Positions 12,914-17,794 of a stretch of 33,030 nucleotides of DNA are shown here, piece by piece. The notes below the pieces were generated by a model. It had not been told where the DNA came from. It did no database searches and worked only from the letters and a program-made list of their open reading frames with translations. The stretch spans positions 1 through 33,030 of the forward strand of contig JACRCV010000072.1 of assembly GCA_016218825.1 (NCBI GenBank), written 5' to 3'. The position numbers were made by a program, and so were the translations under genes. The stretch comes from Deltaproteobacteria bacterium (GTDB lineage Bacteria > Myxococcota > XYA12-FULL-58-9). The number at the start of each line of letters is the position of its first letter. Position 1 is the first letter of the stretch.

Positions 12914-14761
12914 ATGACCACGCCTAGGGCCACCGCTCGGCCCCCCAACTGGCCCGACCTGGGCAAGTACGAGATCCTGACCGAGATCGGCGCCGGCGGC
13001 ATGGCCACCGTCTATCTGGCGCGGCAGCGCGGCCCGCAGAGCTTCGAAAAGCTGGTGGTCGTCAAGACGATCCACCCCCACCTCGCCAAGCAAGAGCACT
13101 TCGTCAACATGTTCCTCGACGAGGCGAGGATCGCGGCGCAGATCAACCACCCAAACGTCATTCAGGTCTATGATCTCGGCATCGAGAACGACACCTACTT
13201 CATCGTCATGGAGTACCTCCAAGGCGAGCCGCTCAACTCCGTGCTGGAGACGAGCATCACCCGCAGCACGCCGCTGCCGCCGCAGTATGGCGCGCGGATC
13301 GTCGCGCGCGTCGCCGAAGGGCTGCACGCCGCCCACGAGCTCACCAGCATGACGGGCGACGTGCTCGATGTGGTGCACCGCGACGTCACACCGGGGAACA
13401 TCATCGTCAACTATGACGGGCGGGTGAAGGTCGTCGATTTCGGCGTCGCCAAGGCCCGCGGCCGTCTGACCCAGACCGAGGGCGGGCAGCTCAAGGGCAA
13501 GCTCTCCTACATGTCGCCCGAGCAGATCGAGGGCGACCGAGTCGATCGCCGATCGGACATCTTCGCAGCCGGAGTCGTCCTCTGGGAGGTCCTGGCCGTG
13601 CGCCGGCTCTTCCGGCATAGCAGCGAGGCCGCGGTCCTGGCGGCGATCTTCTCCAAGCGGCCAAAGCCTCCCTCGCACTTCCGCCCGAGTGTGCCGGCCG
13701 CGCTCGATGCCATCGCGCTGCGCGCCCTGGAGAAGGACCCTGCCAACCGCTACCAGACAGCGAGAGAGATGCAGATCGAGCTCGACGCCGCGTCGGCACC
13801 CCACGCCACCGATCCCGACCTGTCGCGCTGGATGGACACGTTGTTCGCGGACCGCGCCAGCGCCCGCAAGCGCGCCATCGCCCAGGTGGTCGAAGCTGCC
13901 AACGGGCACTTCGCGGCCGATTCGAGTGGGATCCGCGTCCTGCTCCGGGACGAGGACAGCGGCTCGCTGTCCCTGCCGGGCAAGAGCGCGGTGACCTCCA
14001 CGGTGCAGTGTGATCGGCCGACGACCCCACCGGACCTCGCCGGCGACACCGACGCCTATGAAGTGAACGATGCACCCTCGCCCGAAGCACAGGCCCACTC
14101 GCGGGCCCCCGCGCGCCCTGTGGGGGGATCGCCGCGGTTTCCGGCCGGAAAGCAGGGCATCGTGGCGGCGTTGGGTGTGACCCTCCTCGCCGGCCTCGGC
14201 CTGATGTTCGCGCTCAAGCCGACCGCCAACGATAGGATGTCGAGCGGTTCGAACCCCACCGACGGCCGCACCGTCGCCGTCTCCCCCAAGGCCGTTCTGC
14301 CGGATCTGCCTGGCGCCGCCGAGCCCCGGCCCGAAGCGTTGCCCGCGCCGACCCCCGAGGCTGATGCCGGCGGAACCGCGGAGAGTGCGCCGGCACCGGC
14401 CGGTGCAGCCCCGGCGAGGCAGACCGCCAAGCGCCAGCGGAAGGACGAGGCCAAGACCGACACGCCGCGGACAACCGCGAAGAAGCCGGTCGACGCCGCG
14501 GAGGCGAAGCGCCTCTTCGACGAGGCCACGCGGCTCTACCTGCGGGGCAAGCTCGATGACGCCGAGCGCAGCTATAAGGGGGCGCTCGCGGCCGACCCAG
14601 CCTTTGCCCCGGCGTACCGTGCCCTCGGTCTGCTCCACCAGCGACGCGGCAACAGGGCCCTGGCGATCAAGAACCTGCGCGCTTACCTGAACCTGTCGCC
14701 CTGGGCGGAGGACGCCGAAGCCACTCAGGCGCGCCTCAAAGAGCTCGCGGGCACCAAGTAG
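12914..14761 (+). CDS. transmembrane Ser/Thr protein kinase with C-terminal TPR
   Basis: A 615-residue kinase. The kinase domain spans ~18-285: Gly loop IGAGGMATVYLA (25-36), Lys51 (VVVKTI), Glu70, catalytic loop HRDVTPGN (155-162), DFG 175-177, SPE in place of APE at 201-203. Thr159 replaces the usual HRDxK lysine, a change common in myxobacterial kinases (HRDVS/TP). A linker follows, then one membrane helix (~415-434, GIVAALGVTLLAGLGLMFAL), a Pro/Ala/Glu-rich stretch, and a C-terminal domain (~505-615) with TPR units (AKRLFDEATRLYLRGKLDDAE; AYRALGLLHQRRGNRALAIKN). The kinase faces the cytoplasm and the TPR the periplasm. It lies directly after the envelope protein gene; the signal it senses is unknown. 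Confidence 0.94.
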   Translation: MTTPRATARPPNWPDLGKYEILTEIGAGGMATVYLARQRGPQSFEKLVVVKTIHPHLAKQEHFVNMFLDEARIAAQINHPNVIQVYDLGIENDTYFIVMEYLQGEPLNSVLETSITRSTPLPPQYGARIVARVAEGLHAAHELTSMTGDVLDVVHRDVTPGNIIVNYDGRVKVVDFGVAKARGRLTQTEGGQLKGKLSYMSPEQIEGDRVDRRSDIFAAGVVLWEVLAVRRLFRHSSEAAVLAAIFSKRPKPPSHFRPSVPAALDAIALRALEKDPANRYQTAREMQIELDAASAPHATDPDLSRWMDTLFADRASARKRAIAQVVEAANGHFAADSSGIRVLLRDEDSGSLSLPGKSAVTSTVQCDRPTTPPDLAGDTDAYEVNDAPSPEAQAHSRAPARPVGGSPRFPAGKQGIVAALGVTLLAGLGLMFALKPTANDRMSSGSNPTDGRTVAVSPKAVLPDLPGAAEPRPEALPAPTPEADAGGTAESAPAPAGAAPARQTAKRQRKDEAKTDTPRTTAKKPVDAAEAKRLFDEATRLYLRGKLDDAERSYKGALAADPAFAPAYRALGLLHQRRGNRALAIKNLRAYLNLSPWAEDAEATQARLKELAGTK

Positions 14762-14771
14762 CAGGTAGGGC

Positions 14772-14808
14772 TTGACACGAGCACGGTTTTGTTAGATGAC
14801 GCTAACAA
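14772..14808 (+). promoter_or_regulatory. promoter -35 box and DtxR-type operator of the feo operon
   Basis: TTGACA at 14772-14777 is a perfect -35 box. From 14789 to 14808 lies the inverted repeat TTGTTAG-ATGACG-CTAACAA, with 7-bp perfect arms. The halves GTTAG and CTAAC are the ones in DtxR/IdeR boxes (TTAGGTTAG...CTAACCTAA), here spread by 6 bases. It covers where the -10 box should be (TTAGAT or TAGATG, spacing 14-15), so a metal-loaded repressor bound here would block transcription. The downstream gene encodes just such a repressor. Confidence 0.6.
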
Positions 14809-14843
14809 TGACTAGCGCGGCTGCCAGCACCAAGGTTCACGAG

Positions 14844-15563
14844 ATGAGCCCCGCGCTCGAAGACTACCTCGAGACCATCTACCTCCTCGTCCAGGAGCAT
14901 GGCTTCGCCAGGGTCAAGGACATCGCACGGGCTCGCGACGTGAAGGCCGCCACGGTTTCGATTGCCTTGCGCAAGCTCGCCGAGCTCGAGCTCGTGCGCT
15001 ACGAGCGTCGCGAGTACATCGCCCTCTCACCCCACGGCGAGGAGGCGGGCCGCCGGGTGTTCACGCGGCATCGGCTGCTCGCCCGCTTCTTCGAGGAGGT
15101 GCTCGGGATGCCGGCGGCCGCTGCGAGCGAGCAAGCCTGCGCCATGGAGCACAGCCTGACCGACGACGCGATGAATCGCTTGGTGAGGTTCTTCGAGTTC
15201 GTCGGCTCGTGTCCGAACGTCGTCGACAGCTTCCGGGAGTGCCAGACGGCGCTTGGACCAGGGTGTTCCCCGGAACAGCGGAACACGAGTGGCGCGTGCG
15301 CGCTCTGCTCGGAGAAAGAGGAAGACCCACAGATGAGCTTGGCCGACTTGAAGCCGGGACAAAGCGCGGTGGTGACTCACGTCGGGGCGGCCGGCGCCCT
15401 GCGCCAGCGCCTGCTCGACATGGGGATCCTCCCGAACACCACCATCAACCTCGAACGCTCGGGGCCGGGCGGCGAGCCGCTCTGGATCCGTTGCCACGGC
15501 GCGCGCCTGGCGCTTCGCCGCACGGAGGCTACGGTCATTCGGGTGCGCGACGAGATGGCGTAG
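14844..15563 (+). CDS. DtxR-family iron-responsive repressor fused to FeoA
   Basis: A 239-residue regulator. I start at the ATG at 14844, which has AAGG 8 bases upstream and begins with the family's MSPALEDYLETIYLL; ATGs at 14796 and 14808 lie in the operator and have no ribosome site. The N-terminal half is winged helix (VKDIARARDVKAATVSIALRKL). The dimer/metal part has RHRLLARFFEEVLG and CAMEH, matching DtxR Cys102-x-x-Glu105-His106; Cys here points to iron rather than manganese. The place of DtxR Glu83 is Ala. A linker with cysteines (REC, PGC, GACALC) follows, then an SH3-like FeoA domain (MSLADLKPGQSAVVTHVG ... DMGILPNTTINL). It should repress the feo operon when Fe(II) is ample, and FeoA assists FeoB. 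Confidence 0.92.
   Translation: MSPALEDYLETIYLLVQEHGFARVKDIARARDVKAATVSIALRKLAELELVRYERREYIALSPHGEEAGRRVFTRHRLLARFFEEVLGMPAAAASEQACAMEHSLTDDAMNRLVRFFEFVGSCPNVVDSFRECQTALGPGCSPEQRNTSGACALCSEKEEDPQMSLADLKPGQSAVVTHVGAAGALRQRLLDMGILPNTTINLERSGPGGEPLWIRCHGARLALRRTEATVIRVRDEMA
15333..15563 (+). CDS. feoA: possible internal start giving free FeoA
   Basis: Inside the fusion, the in-frame ATG at 15333 opens exactly at the FeoA domain (MSLADLKPGQ) and is preceded by AGAGGAAG about 8 bases away. Translation from it would give a 76-residue protein, the usual size of stand-alone FeoA, before feoB. No separate feoA gene is present here. Whether the site is used cannot be told from sequence. Confidence 0.38.
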   Translation: MSLADLKPGQSAVVTHVGAAGALRQRLLDMGILPNTTINLERSGPGGEPLWIRCHGARLALRRTEATVIRVRDEMA

Positions 15564-15570
15564 GGGTTGG

Positions 15571-15578
15571 TTTTTTTT
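15571..15578 (+). other. T8 run between the regulator and feoB
   Basis: Eight consecutive T in the 41-base gap between the DtxR-FeoA fusion and feoB stand out in this GC-rich DNA. No stable hairpin precedes it, so it is not a convincing terminator; it might lower feoB expression or be a slippage site. Confidence 0.3.
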
Positions 15579-15604
15579 GCCCTCCGAAGTAGTCGAGGCT
15601 AACG

Positions 15605-17794
15605 ATGCTAGATGCTGCAAAGCAAATGACCAAGGCTGAGCCGGCGAAGGCGTTTCGGGTTGCCCTCGCCGGGAACCCCAACTGCGGCAAGACGTCGCTC
15701 TTCAACGCGCTGACGGGGGCACGCCAGCACGTCGCCAACTATCCTGGGGTCACGGTCGAGCGGCGGACCGGCAGCTGCGCGGTGGACGAGCTGCGCGCCG
15801 AGGTCGTGGATCTGCCAGGTACCTACAGCTTGAGCTCGTTCTCGCCGGAGGAGAAGGTCGCAGAGGACGAGTTGATGGACGGACCTGCCGTGGTGGTCGT
15901 GGTCGCCGACTCCACCCAGCTGCAGCGGAACCTCGTGCTCCTCGCCCAGATCATGCAGACCGGGGCCAACCCCGTCCTCTGCCTCAACATGGCCGACGAA
16001 GCGCGCGCCGCCGGCCAGACGCTCGATCTGCCGCTCATGGAGCAGCTGCTCGGCTTCCCGGTCGTCGAGACAGTGGGACATCGAGGGCACGGGGTCGCCG
16101 GCCTCAAGCAGGCCATCAGGCGTGCGGCACGAACGCCGGTCGTCCGGCACAAGATCGTGCTCGGCGCGGAGCTCGAGAGCGCCTTGGCTGCCATTCGCAA
16201 GGTCCTGCCGGCGAGCCCGGCCCGGGCGCTGAGCGACGACTGGACGGCCACGCGTCTGCTCCTCGATGATCCGGCGCACACCAAGAGAGTGGAATCCCTC
16301 CCCGGCGGCGACCGGGCGATCGCGGCGGCCCGCGGCCAACGCACTCGGCTCGAGTCGCTGACTCGCAAGGACATCTCGGTCTTCGTGACCGAGCGCTACT
16401 TCGGCTTCGTCGATGGGCTCCTGCGCGAGGCCCGCACGCTCGCGCCGCGCCTCGACCCGCGTGAGCTCTCGGACCGGATCGACGCCGTCGTGGTTCATCG
16501 CCACCTGGGCCTGCCGATCTTCGCGCTGGTCATGTTCGCGATCTTCTGGCTGACCTTCGCCGTCGGCCAGTACCCGATGGAGTGGATCCAAGCGGGTGCG
16601 ACGTGGCTCGGCGACACGGTGTCCGCGCTGTGGCCGGAGGGCCCCGATTCGGTCTTGCGGTCGTTGCTCGTCGACGGGGTGATCGGCGGCGTCGGCGGCG
16701 TCATCGTCTTCCTGCCGAACATCCTGCTCTTGTTCCTCGGCCTCGCCTTTCTCGAGGACACCGGCTACATGGCGCGCGCCGCCTATCTGACCGACCGGCT
16801 GATGCATCGATTCGGTCTCCACGGCAAGAGCTTCATCCCCATGCTGAGCGGCTTCGGTTGCACGGTGCCGGGCATCATGGCCACGAGGACGCTCGAGAAC
16901 GAGCGCGACCGGCTGGTCACGATGCTGGTGTTGCCGCTGATGTCCTGCGGCGCACGGCTCCCGATCTGGCTGCTGCTCATCCCGGCGTTCTTCCCGCCCA
17001 TCTGGCGCGCGCCGGTGCTCTGGCTGGTTTACGCCGCGGGCACTCTGCTCGCACTCGTGCTCGCGCTCGCGCTGCGCAAGACCTTGATGCGGGGCGACGA
17101 TGCGCCGTTCGTCATGGAGCTGCCGCCGTATCGTCTGCCGACCTTGCGCAGCGTCGTCATCAAGATGCTGGGCCGGGCAGGCCTCTACCTGCGCAAGGCC
17201 GGGACGACCATCCTCGCGCTCTCCATCCTCTTGTGGGTGGCGACGTCGTTTCCGAAGCCTTCTTCACATCGAGTCGACGAGCAGATCGCCGCGGGCGAAG
17301 TCGTGGTGACCGAGAAGGTCGACGCGGCGGCGGCGACGCCATTCGGGTCCGCTCCATTGGTGCTGTCCCAGAGCGAACTGGCGGGTCGGCGAGCGACGGA
17401 GGACCTCGAGTTCTCGGCGGCCGGTCGGGTGGGTCGCGCCCTGGCGCCGGTCTTCGCTCCTCTTGGGTTCGACTGGAAGATCGTGACGGCAATGATCGGC
17501 GCGTTCGCGGCCAAGGAGGTGTTCGTCGCGCAGATGGGCATCGTCTACTCGATCACCGATGCCGAAGCGGGCACCCAAGGGCTGCGCGCGGCACTGGCGC
17601 GCGACTACAGGCCGGTGACCGGGCTGAGCCTCATCATCTTCTTGCTCGTGGGGACGCCCTGCATGGCCACGTTCGCCATCACCCGGCGCGAATCGGGGCG
17701 CTGGCGCTTTGCGGCGCTGCAATTCGGTGGCTTGACCGCGATCGCCTATCTGCTGGCGCTGATCGTGTTCCAGGTCGGGCGCCTTTTCGGATGA
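15605..17794 (+). CDS. feoB: ferrous iron transporter FeoB
   Basis: A 729-residue Fe(II) transporter of the inner membrane. The N-terminal G domain has G1 GNPNCGKT at 23-30, G2 in the NYPGVTVE stretch, G3 DLPGTYSL and G4 NMAD; a helical GDI-like domain follows. The membrane part carries the Gate motifs, including PMLSGFGCTVPGIMATRT and MSCGARLPIW, and GTPCMATFAITRRESG near the end. Full length for the family. GAGG sits six bases before the ATG at 15605. It follows the regulator-FeoA fusion by 41 bases and is followed 13 bases later by a small Cys-rich membrane protein, so the three form one operon. It imports Fe(II), probably when oxygen is low. Confidence 0.98.
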   Translation: MLDAAKQMTKAEPAKAFRVALAGNPNCGKTSLFNALTGARQHVANYPGVTVERRTGSCAVDELRAEVVDLPGTYSLSSFSPEEKVAEDELMDGPAVVVVVADSTQLQRNLVLLAQIMQTGANPVLCLNMADEARAAGQTLDLPLMEQLLGFPVVETVGHRGHGVAGLKQAIRRAARTPVVRHKIVLGAELESALAAIRKVLPASPARALSDDWTATRLLLDDPAHTKRVESLPGGDRAIAAARGQRTRLESLTRKDISVFVTERYFGFVDGLLREARTLAPRLDPRELSDRIDAVVVHRHLGLPIFALVMFAIFWLTFAVGQYPMEWIQAGATWLGDTVSALWPEGPDSVLRSLLVDGVIGGVGGVIVFLPNILLLFLGLAFLEDTGYMARAAYLTDRLMHRFGLHGKSFIPMLSGFGCTVPGIMATRTLENERDRLVTMLVLPLMSCGARLPIWLLLIPAFFPPIWRAPVLWLVYAAGTLLALVLALALRKTLMRGDDAPFVMELPPYRLPTLRSVVIKMLGRAGLYLRKAGTTILALSILLWVATSFPKPSSHRVDEQIAAGEVVVTEKVDAAAATPFGSAPLVLSQSELAGRRATEDLEFSAAGRVGRALAPVFAPLGFDWKIVTAMIGAFAAKEVFVAQMGIVYSITDAEAGTQGLRAALARDYRPVTGLSLIIFLLVGTPCMATFAITRRESGRWRFAALQFGGLTAIAYLLALIVFQVGRLFG

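Follow-up and report, generated by a model that had tools for sequence, protein, structure and literature searches.

The window, by which we mean the whole 33,030-nucleotide stretch of DNA that was analysed, carries a gene that encodes a DtxR-type protein joined in frame to a FeoA domain, with feoB following it on the same strand (Table 1). The longest open reading frame of the fusion, 14796-15563, encodes 255 residues, and the frame from ATG 14808 encodes 251. We consider ATG 14808 most likely to be the true start and set ATG 14796 aside, because the latter lies within a perfect inverted repeat and its equivalent codon is ATA in the same-genus relative L015. In the fusion protein, the Pfam matches to Fe_dep_repress (50.1 bits) and Fe_dep_repr_C (63.5 bits) were both above cut-off, and FeoA occupies residues 180-251 of the 255-residue form. 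The primary metal site, Cys-x2-Glu-His, is formed by C115, E118, and H119, which are invariant in 11 of 11 sequences; the metal site of CdDtxR is numbered Cys102, Glu105, and His106 in an excerpt of PMC4805248. An AlphaFold2 model of the fusion had a mean pLDDT of 88.9, and its top Foldseek matches were IdeR and SloR, with DtxR and MntR lower in the list. The product is predicted to be a repressor of the DtxR/IdeR family with putative metal-dependent DNA binding, and the DtxR-FeoA fusion is an already known architecture.

Table 1. Features of the fusion-feoB locus in window coordinates
Feature	Position	Strand	Basis or remark
Operator-like perfect inverted repeat TTGTTAG-N6-CTAACAA	14789-14795/14802-14808	.	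Ends at the probable start codon
DtxR-FeoA fusion gene	14808..15563	+	ORF; Pfam matches above cut-off to Fe_dep_repress, Fe_dep_repr_C, and FeoA
Cys-rich linker, DtxR dimerisation domain to FeoA	15210..15332	+	Cys 139, 149, 157, 168, 171 (255-aa numbering)
Shine-Dalgarno-like AGAGGAAG	15317..15324	+	8 nt ahead of the internal ATG; duplex -5.9 kcal/mol with the anti-SD
Embedded feoA frame	15333..15563	+	76 aa from ATG to stop codon; coincides with the FeoA domain
T8 run, 11 nt, operator-like GTAG-TCGAGG-CTAA ahead of feoB	15571..15602	.	Sequence
feoB, ferrous iron transporter	15605..17794	+	TIGR00437, 546.9 bits (above cut-off); Pfam FeoB_N, FeoB_C

Ahead of the gene stands a TTGACA hexamer (14772-14777), and after it comes the operator repeat that ends at ATG 14808. 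This ATG is without a Shine-Dalgarno (SD) sequence; the fusion mRNA may be leaderless. A consensus promoter scan returned no promoter-like site and no full match in the 14772-14808 region. The operator-like repeat suggests autoregulation of the fusion, and an operator-like match was seen near the gene start in 33 of 85 fusions. The upstream neighbour (12914-14761) is a Ser/Thr protein kinase whose C-terminal TPR matches fall below the Pfam cut-off.

The linker is rich in cysteine: across the 85 fusions, Cys makes up 8% of linker residues compared to 1% elsewhere, and 62 have the four-cysteine pattern C-x6-16-C-x4-36-C-x2-4-C. These cysteines could possibly form an Fe-S or zinc site; a literature search on the Cys-rich linker found nothing tied to such a linker by title or the start of an abstract. 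Between the fusion and feoB, the palindrome resembles TTAG-N6-CTAA, and a run of at least five T residues, a 9- to 13-nt spacer, and TAG recur in 18 of 58 feoB-linked loci, with a spacer of exactly 11 nt in 17 of these 18. The segment 15571-15602 may serve both as a terminator tail and as an iron-controlled promoter of feoB. A consensus terminator scan gave two terminator-like sites (0.9 expected), neither of them between the fusion and feoB.

The internal ATG and its sequence context

A sequence-only reading of this DNA had pointed to an in-frame ATG at 15333 with an SD about 8 bases ahead, starting exactly at the FeoA domain and giving a 76-residue product. Each of these points was confirmed. 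The codon at 15333-15335 is in frame with the 14796-15563 ORF and encodes residue 180, where the Pfam FeoA match begins, and AGAGGAAG is separated from it by the 8-nt spacer ACCCACAG. The coding part of the embedded frame (15333-15560, 76 aa) matches FeoA over residues 1-72 with 74.0 bits (cut-off 23), covering profile positions 1-73 of 74. Among sequence relatives of the embedded FeoA with solved structures, the best was 2k5f (E 1.1e-11). In the model of the whole fusion, strands are predicted in the FeoA domain core, a candidate SH3-like small barrel, with block-mean pLDDT of 92-97.

The SD was scored by its duplex with the anti-SD; the 3′ end of the genome's own 16S rRNA reads ...GGATCACCTCCTTTCT. 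The core GAGG (15318-15321) lies 11 nt from ATG 15333, a spacing that exceeds the usual SD optimum. Taken alone, the SD energy of the internal site is ordinary, since 11.6% of 1312 internal ATGs in ORFs of the same genome reach -5.9 kcal/mol or better; the gene's own candidate starts at 14796, 14808, and 14844 are weaker (-2.4, 0.4, and -3.3). The RNA around the site is open, with a local fold of -6.0 kcal/mol versus a gene mean of -16.0 kcal/mol; only 1.4% of the gene's codon positions are as open or more, and the site is more open than synonymous versions of the sequence (p 0.025). When both properties were combined (SD of -5.9 kcal/mol or lower and fold of -6.0 kcal/mol or higher, both thresholds being derived from ATG 15333 itself), this ATG was the only one to pass among 1355 internal ATGs in 197 sampled ORFs of the genome. 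Within the gene, ATG 15108 slightly outscores it on SD plus fold (-3.5 versus -2.9), and ATG 15333 ranks 2 of 14.

Such a site could also arise by chance, if the Glu/Lys-rich linker gave SD-like, open RNA for free and a Met stood at the boundary by luck. In line with this, 92% of synonymous linker versions have an SD at least as strong as that of the window, the Glu/Lys codons forcing it, and an equally good SD is common among internal ATGs, as noted. The composite score of the site was likewise unremarkable among synonymous versions (percentile 0.82), and the synonymous-version comparison made no selection on the codons of the window's SD visible. Against chance stands the joint occurrence of SD and openness, unique in the sample; we regard a chance origin as very improbable.

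Comparison across fusions and linkage to feoB

We compared the site across orthologous fusions. A scan of genome contigs kept 80 named loci, which together with ten phylum loci and the window made 91 loci read, 81 of them distinct after 10 duplicates were dropped; in an enlarged set of 119, 31 duplicates were dropped, those ten included. L128 (no fused FeoA) and L167 and L168 (no recognisable FeoA boundary) were left out, as was L100 from the adjacency counts, its contig ending 577 nt downstream. The family-wide test thus covered 84 fusions, 26 of which were classed as not adjacent, meaning no feoB match within the 1.0-4.0 kb examined downstream; for L024-L026 and L030, the feoB search also took in longer duplicate loci. 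Each in-frame start codon was given a score combining SD energy, local fold, and codon type, and a start was called well-scoring at -1 or lower and between -5 and +2 codons from the FeoA boundary. This score was devised during the analysis, after the data had been viewed, and the feoB association therefore needs repetition. Class searches around Thermoanaerobaculia and Vicinamibacterales relatives yielded no new close orthologues, one giving three new ones at 33-41% identity and the other none.

An ATG in the exact boundary column was found in 14 of 80 fusions (L128 left out). With relatedness ignored in each comparison, these ATG-bearing boundaries had stronger SDs (median -5.9 versus -3.1 for others, p 0.011) and less structure (median percentile 0.11 in 14 rows versus 0.40 in 65, p 0.004; synonymous-adjusted, p 0.017). 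The SD-only synonymous test of ATG versus non-ATG rows was not significant (p 0.11), and six rows with an ATG one or two codons upstream showed no special openness (median percentile 0.37).

A tree that excluded the linker placed the window in a 15-row clade (SH-aLRT 99), in which feoB lies directly after the fusion in nine rows and was not found adjacent in six. The boundary ATG was present in 8 of the 9 feoB-linked fusions versus 1 of the 6 unlinked ones (p 0.011). The ninth linked row, L023, has a GTG one codon upstream, with an SD and open RNA, and with any start codon counted the comparison became 9/9 versus 1/6 (p 0.002). Unlinked rows carry Arg codons (L024-L026 and L059), GCG (L057), or an ATG with a weak SD (L056), and the genomes of L024-L026, L056, and L059 have feoB elsewhere, adjoining a free feoA. 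Well-scoring starts were found in six linked rows (the window, L050, L051, L052, L053, and L023) and in none of the unlinked rows; the linked rows that fell short were L055, L072, and the same-genus relative L015, whose SD is weak (-3.5) and which misses the score threshold. In four feoB-linked genomes, G006, G164, G196, and G210, the fused domain was the only FeoA found, with one FeoB each (G006 and G164 are 86% complete; the completeness of G196 and G210 is unrated).

Among the nine feoB-linked close orthologues, pairwise codon agreement is 0.78 at the ATG, top of 24 codon positions, a value to which the single codon for Met contributes. At linker codons -10 to -1 the agreement is 0-0.11, apart from one Cys column that reaches 0.58. 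This bears on the idea that the ATG and SD are an unused relic of a separate feoA that became fused in frame with dtxR. At L128, a DtxR without FeoA is directly followed by free FeoA frames, the Met stands where free FeoA proteins begin, and lineages differ in keeping it, all of which would fit a relic. Yet with the linker nearly saturated among close orthologues, an unused ATG should have decayed, and shared inheritance, once accounted for by simulation on the tree, does not remove the feoB association (see below). We hold a relic to be improbable.

Across the family, a well-scoring boundary start was present in 21 of 58 feoB-adjacent fusions versus 1 of 26 non-adjacent ones (Fisher p 0.001), and the association persisted when the trait was simulated on the tree (p 0.002). 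It was local to the boundary: in a gene-wide scan, p fell below 0.05 in windows around the FeoA boundary only, and well-scoring starts elsewhere in the gene were independent of feoB adjacency (1.17 versus 1.0 per gene, p 0.58), which is a further point against a chance origin. Among fourteen parameter variants, the twelve scored ones gave p 0.001-0.042 and the two that used the bare ATG gave 0.06 and 0.12; paired tree tests, with 5 usable pairs, were not significant. Collapsing Mucispirillum to one row gave p 0.004, omitting the window's clade p 0.018, and omitting both the clade and Mucispirillum 10/44 versus 1/20 (p 0.077). Most of the signal across the family thus comes from the window's clade and Mucispirillum; outside them it is a trend only.

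In a check run after the score had been fixed, 50 genomes of the Mucispirillum schaedleri phylum were searched. All ten Mucispirillum-type genomes, five repeating the first set and five new, kept both the SD and the start codon, the fusions being 84-100% identical and feoB adjacent in each. Nine genomes have the SD GGAGGT, six nt ahead of the start codon, and the tenth has GAAGGT; 8 genomes use GTG as the start codon and 2 have ATG, and this codon was the best internal start in 10 of 10. Of the remaining Val codons in the fusions, only 21% are GTG, and the Gly-Gly-Arg codons that form the SD are free of synonymous change, a state shared by only 4% of three-codon windows. In the other new feoB-linked fusions, L227-L230, 4 of 4 had GTT or CTT and no start codon within the sixteen codons examined. 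The conservation of the internal site in orthologues, which the sequence-only reading had proposed as a check, thus came out mixed: the site was kept in feoB-linked members of the clade (8/9) and in the Mucispirillum-type genomes (10/10) but not family-wide (14/80 at the exact column) or in L227-L230 (0/4).

These results must be weighed against the simpler view that only the full-length fusion is made, with the FeoA domain serving as the repressor's SH3-like C-terminal domain and the ATG encoding merely a methionine; in a variant of this view, the fused FeoA may touch FeoB, tethering or informing the repressor. DtxR proteins with a C-terminal FeoA are known (excerpts of PMC4805248 and PMC8980893), the FeoA domain is well conserved in the unlinked fusions L024-L026 with Arg at the site, and 37 of the 58 feoB-linked fusions have no well-scoring start. 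From this last count it is evident that the full-length protein, or another FeoA, can serve FeoB. What a full-length product leaves unexplained is the feoB-adjacency pattern of boundary starts, the alternation of GTG and ATG after a conserved SD in the Mucispirillum group, and an ATG that outlasts its linker. We consider it somewhat unlikely that nothing else is made.

Other sources of FeoA were also surveyed. Where a separate feoA intervenes ahead of feoB, 2 of 11 fusions had a well-scoring start (L111 and L115), compared to 19 of 47 where none intervenes (p 0.15); 28 of these 47 were also without a well-scoring start. The proposal that genomes lacking the site must have a separate FeoA was unsupported outside the clade: among the genomes searched, several whose fusions lack the site, for example G007, G011, G016, G207, and G217, showed no short separate FeoA frame. 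In L113, L114, L117, L122, and L124, labelled Fermentibacteria or Aegiribacteria, a frame carrying two FeoA domains stands between the fusion and feoB. The window's own genome has FeoA domains at three places, namely the window fusion and contigs C79 and C114. On C114, a free FeoA adjoins a third FeoB, and on C79 a second DtxR-type FeoA fusion lies close to another FeoB. This second fusion (L012, L006; G000:C79:162000-166500) combines Fe_dep_repr_C with FeoA, is positioned after a divergent FeoB, and gave no N-terminal Fe_dep_repress match at 0.001 or better. No other feoA was found adjoining the feoB at 15605. With the free FeoA on C114 and the fusion on C79, the genome has FeoA that owes nothing to the internal start, which rules out the internal ATG as its only FeoA source.

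A candidate gene within a gene

The comparative tests moderately support an internal start. In the model that we favour, the full ORF would yield a DtxR-type repressor that senses iron and ends in a FeoA domain, and ribosomes would also initiate at ATG 15333, at the domain boundary, to give a free 76-residue FeoA that would bind the G-protein domain of FeoB, the product of the next gene. Where the fusion adjoins feoB, the internal site would tend to stay, and where FeoB moved away it would tend to be lost; well-scoring sites do track feoB adjacency, as a free FeoA for FeoB predicts. The sequences establish the anatomy, the site, and the comparative association, and from them we infer initiation at 15333, accumulation of free FeoA, and service to this FeoB. 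We think it somewhat probable that the dtxR-feoA fusion is a lineage-specific gene within a gene whose internal start at ATG 15333 is used, and, with about the same confidence, that such a start is the best single explanation of the site, its openness, its conservation, and the feoB association. The earlier suggestion that one gene makes both repressor and free FeoA gains partial support from the association with feoB adjacency, but the majority of feoB-linked fusions have no well-scoring start.

A broader scheme, which we offer as a long shot, is that in several phyla one gene gives both a repressor and a transporter partner. The two FeoA forms would compete for FeoB, channel occupancy would be reported to the repressor, the linker might add redox or Fe-S input, and how much of each form is made would be governed by the internal start.

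A genome with a DtxR-FeoA fusion alone may be counted as FeoA-less; a real internal start would mean that it has FeoA after all. In that case, a repressor and a transporter subunit would be coupled through one gene, and signalling from FeoA-FeoB to regulation would become directly testable. The feoB-adjacency comparison is in addition a general approach for finding functional internal starts. Among the papers listed by literature searches on an internal start in FeoA, or on DtxR together with FeoA and FeoB, none dealt with this.

Several known systems share parts of this arrangement. Binding of FeoA to the FeoB G-domain is known for FeoAB of B. fragilis, and how FeoA works with FeoB is called enigmatic (both in an excerpt of PMC8980893). 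Like free FeoA (PDB 2k5f and 2k5l) and the FeoA-FeoB fusion (7r7b; excerpt of PMC8980893), the embedded frame encodes a full FeoA, as judged by Pfam and by sequence; unlike them, it forms the in-frame tail of a repressor gene instead of standing alone or being joined to FeoB. PgMntR of Porphyromonas gingivalis, which carries a pair of FeoA domains and whose gene accompanies that of a manganese transporter (excerpt of PMC4805248), and IdeR/DtxR resemble the fusion in the order of N-terminal HTH, metal/dimerisation domain, and FeoA domain and in the DtxR-family fold found by Foldseek. The window fusion differs from PgMntR in having one FeoA domain, a Cys-rich linker, a start-codon site at the boundary, and feoB next door. 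In-frame internal starts that give a separate C-terminal product are described for RpnS/RpnL (PMC10327210), the CTP1L endolysin (PMC4777826), and Cas11b (PMC11899642). The proposed FeoA has in common with these an in-frame internal start and a shorter second protein; unlike them, it would link a transcription factor to a transporter subunit.
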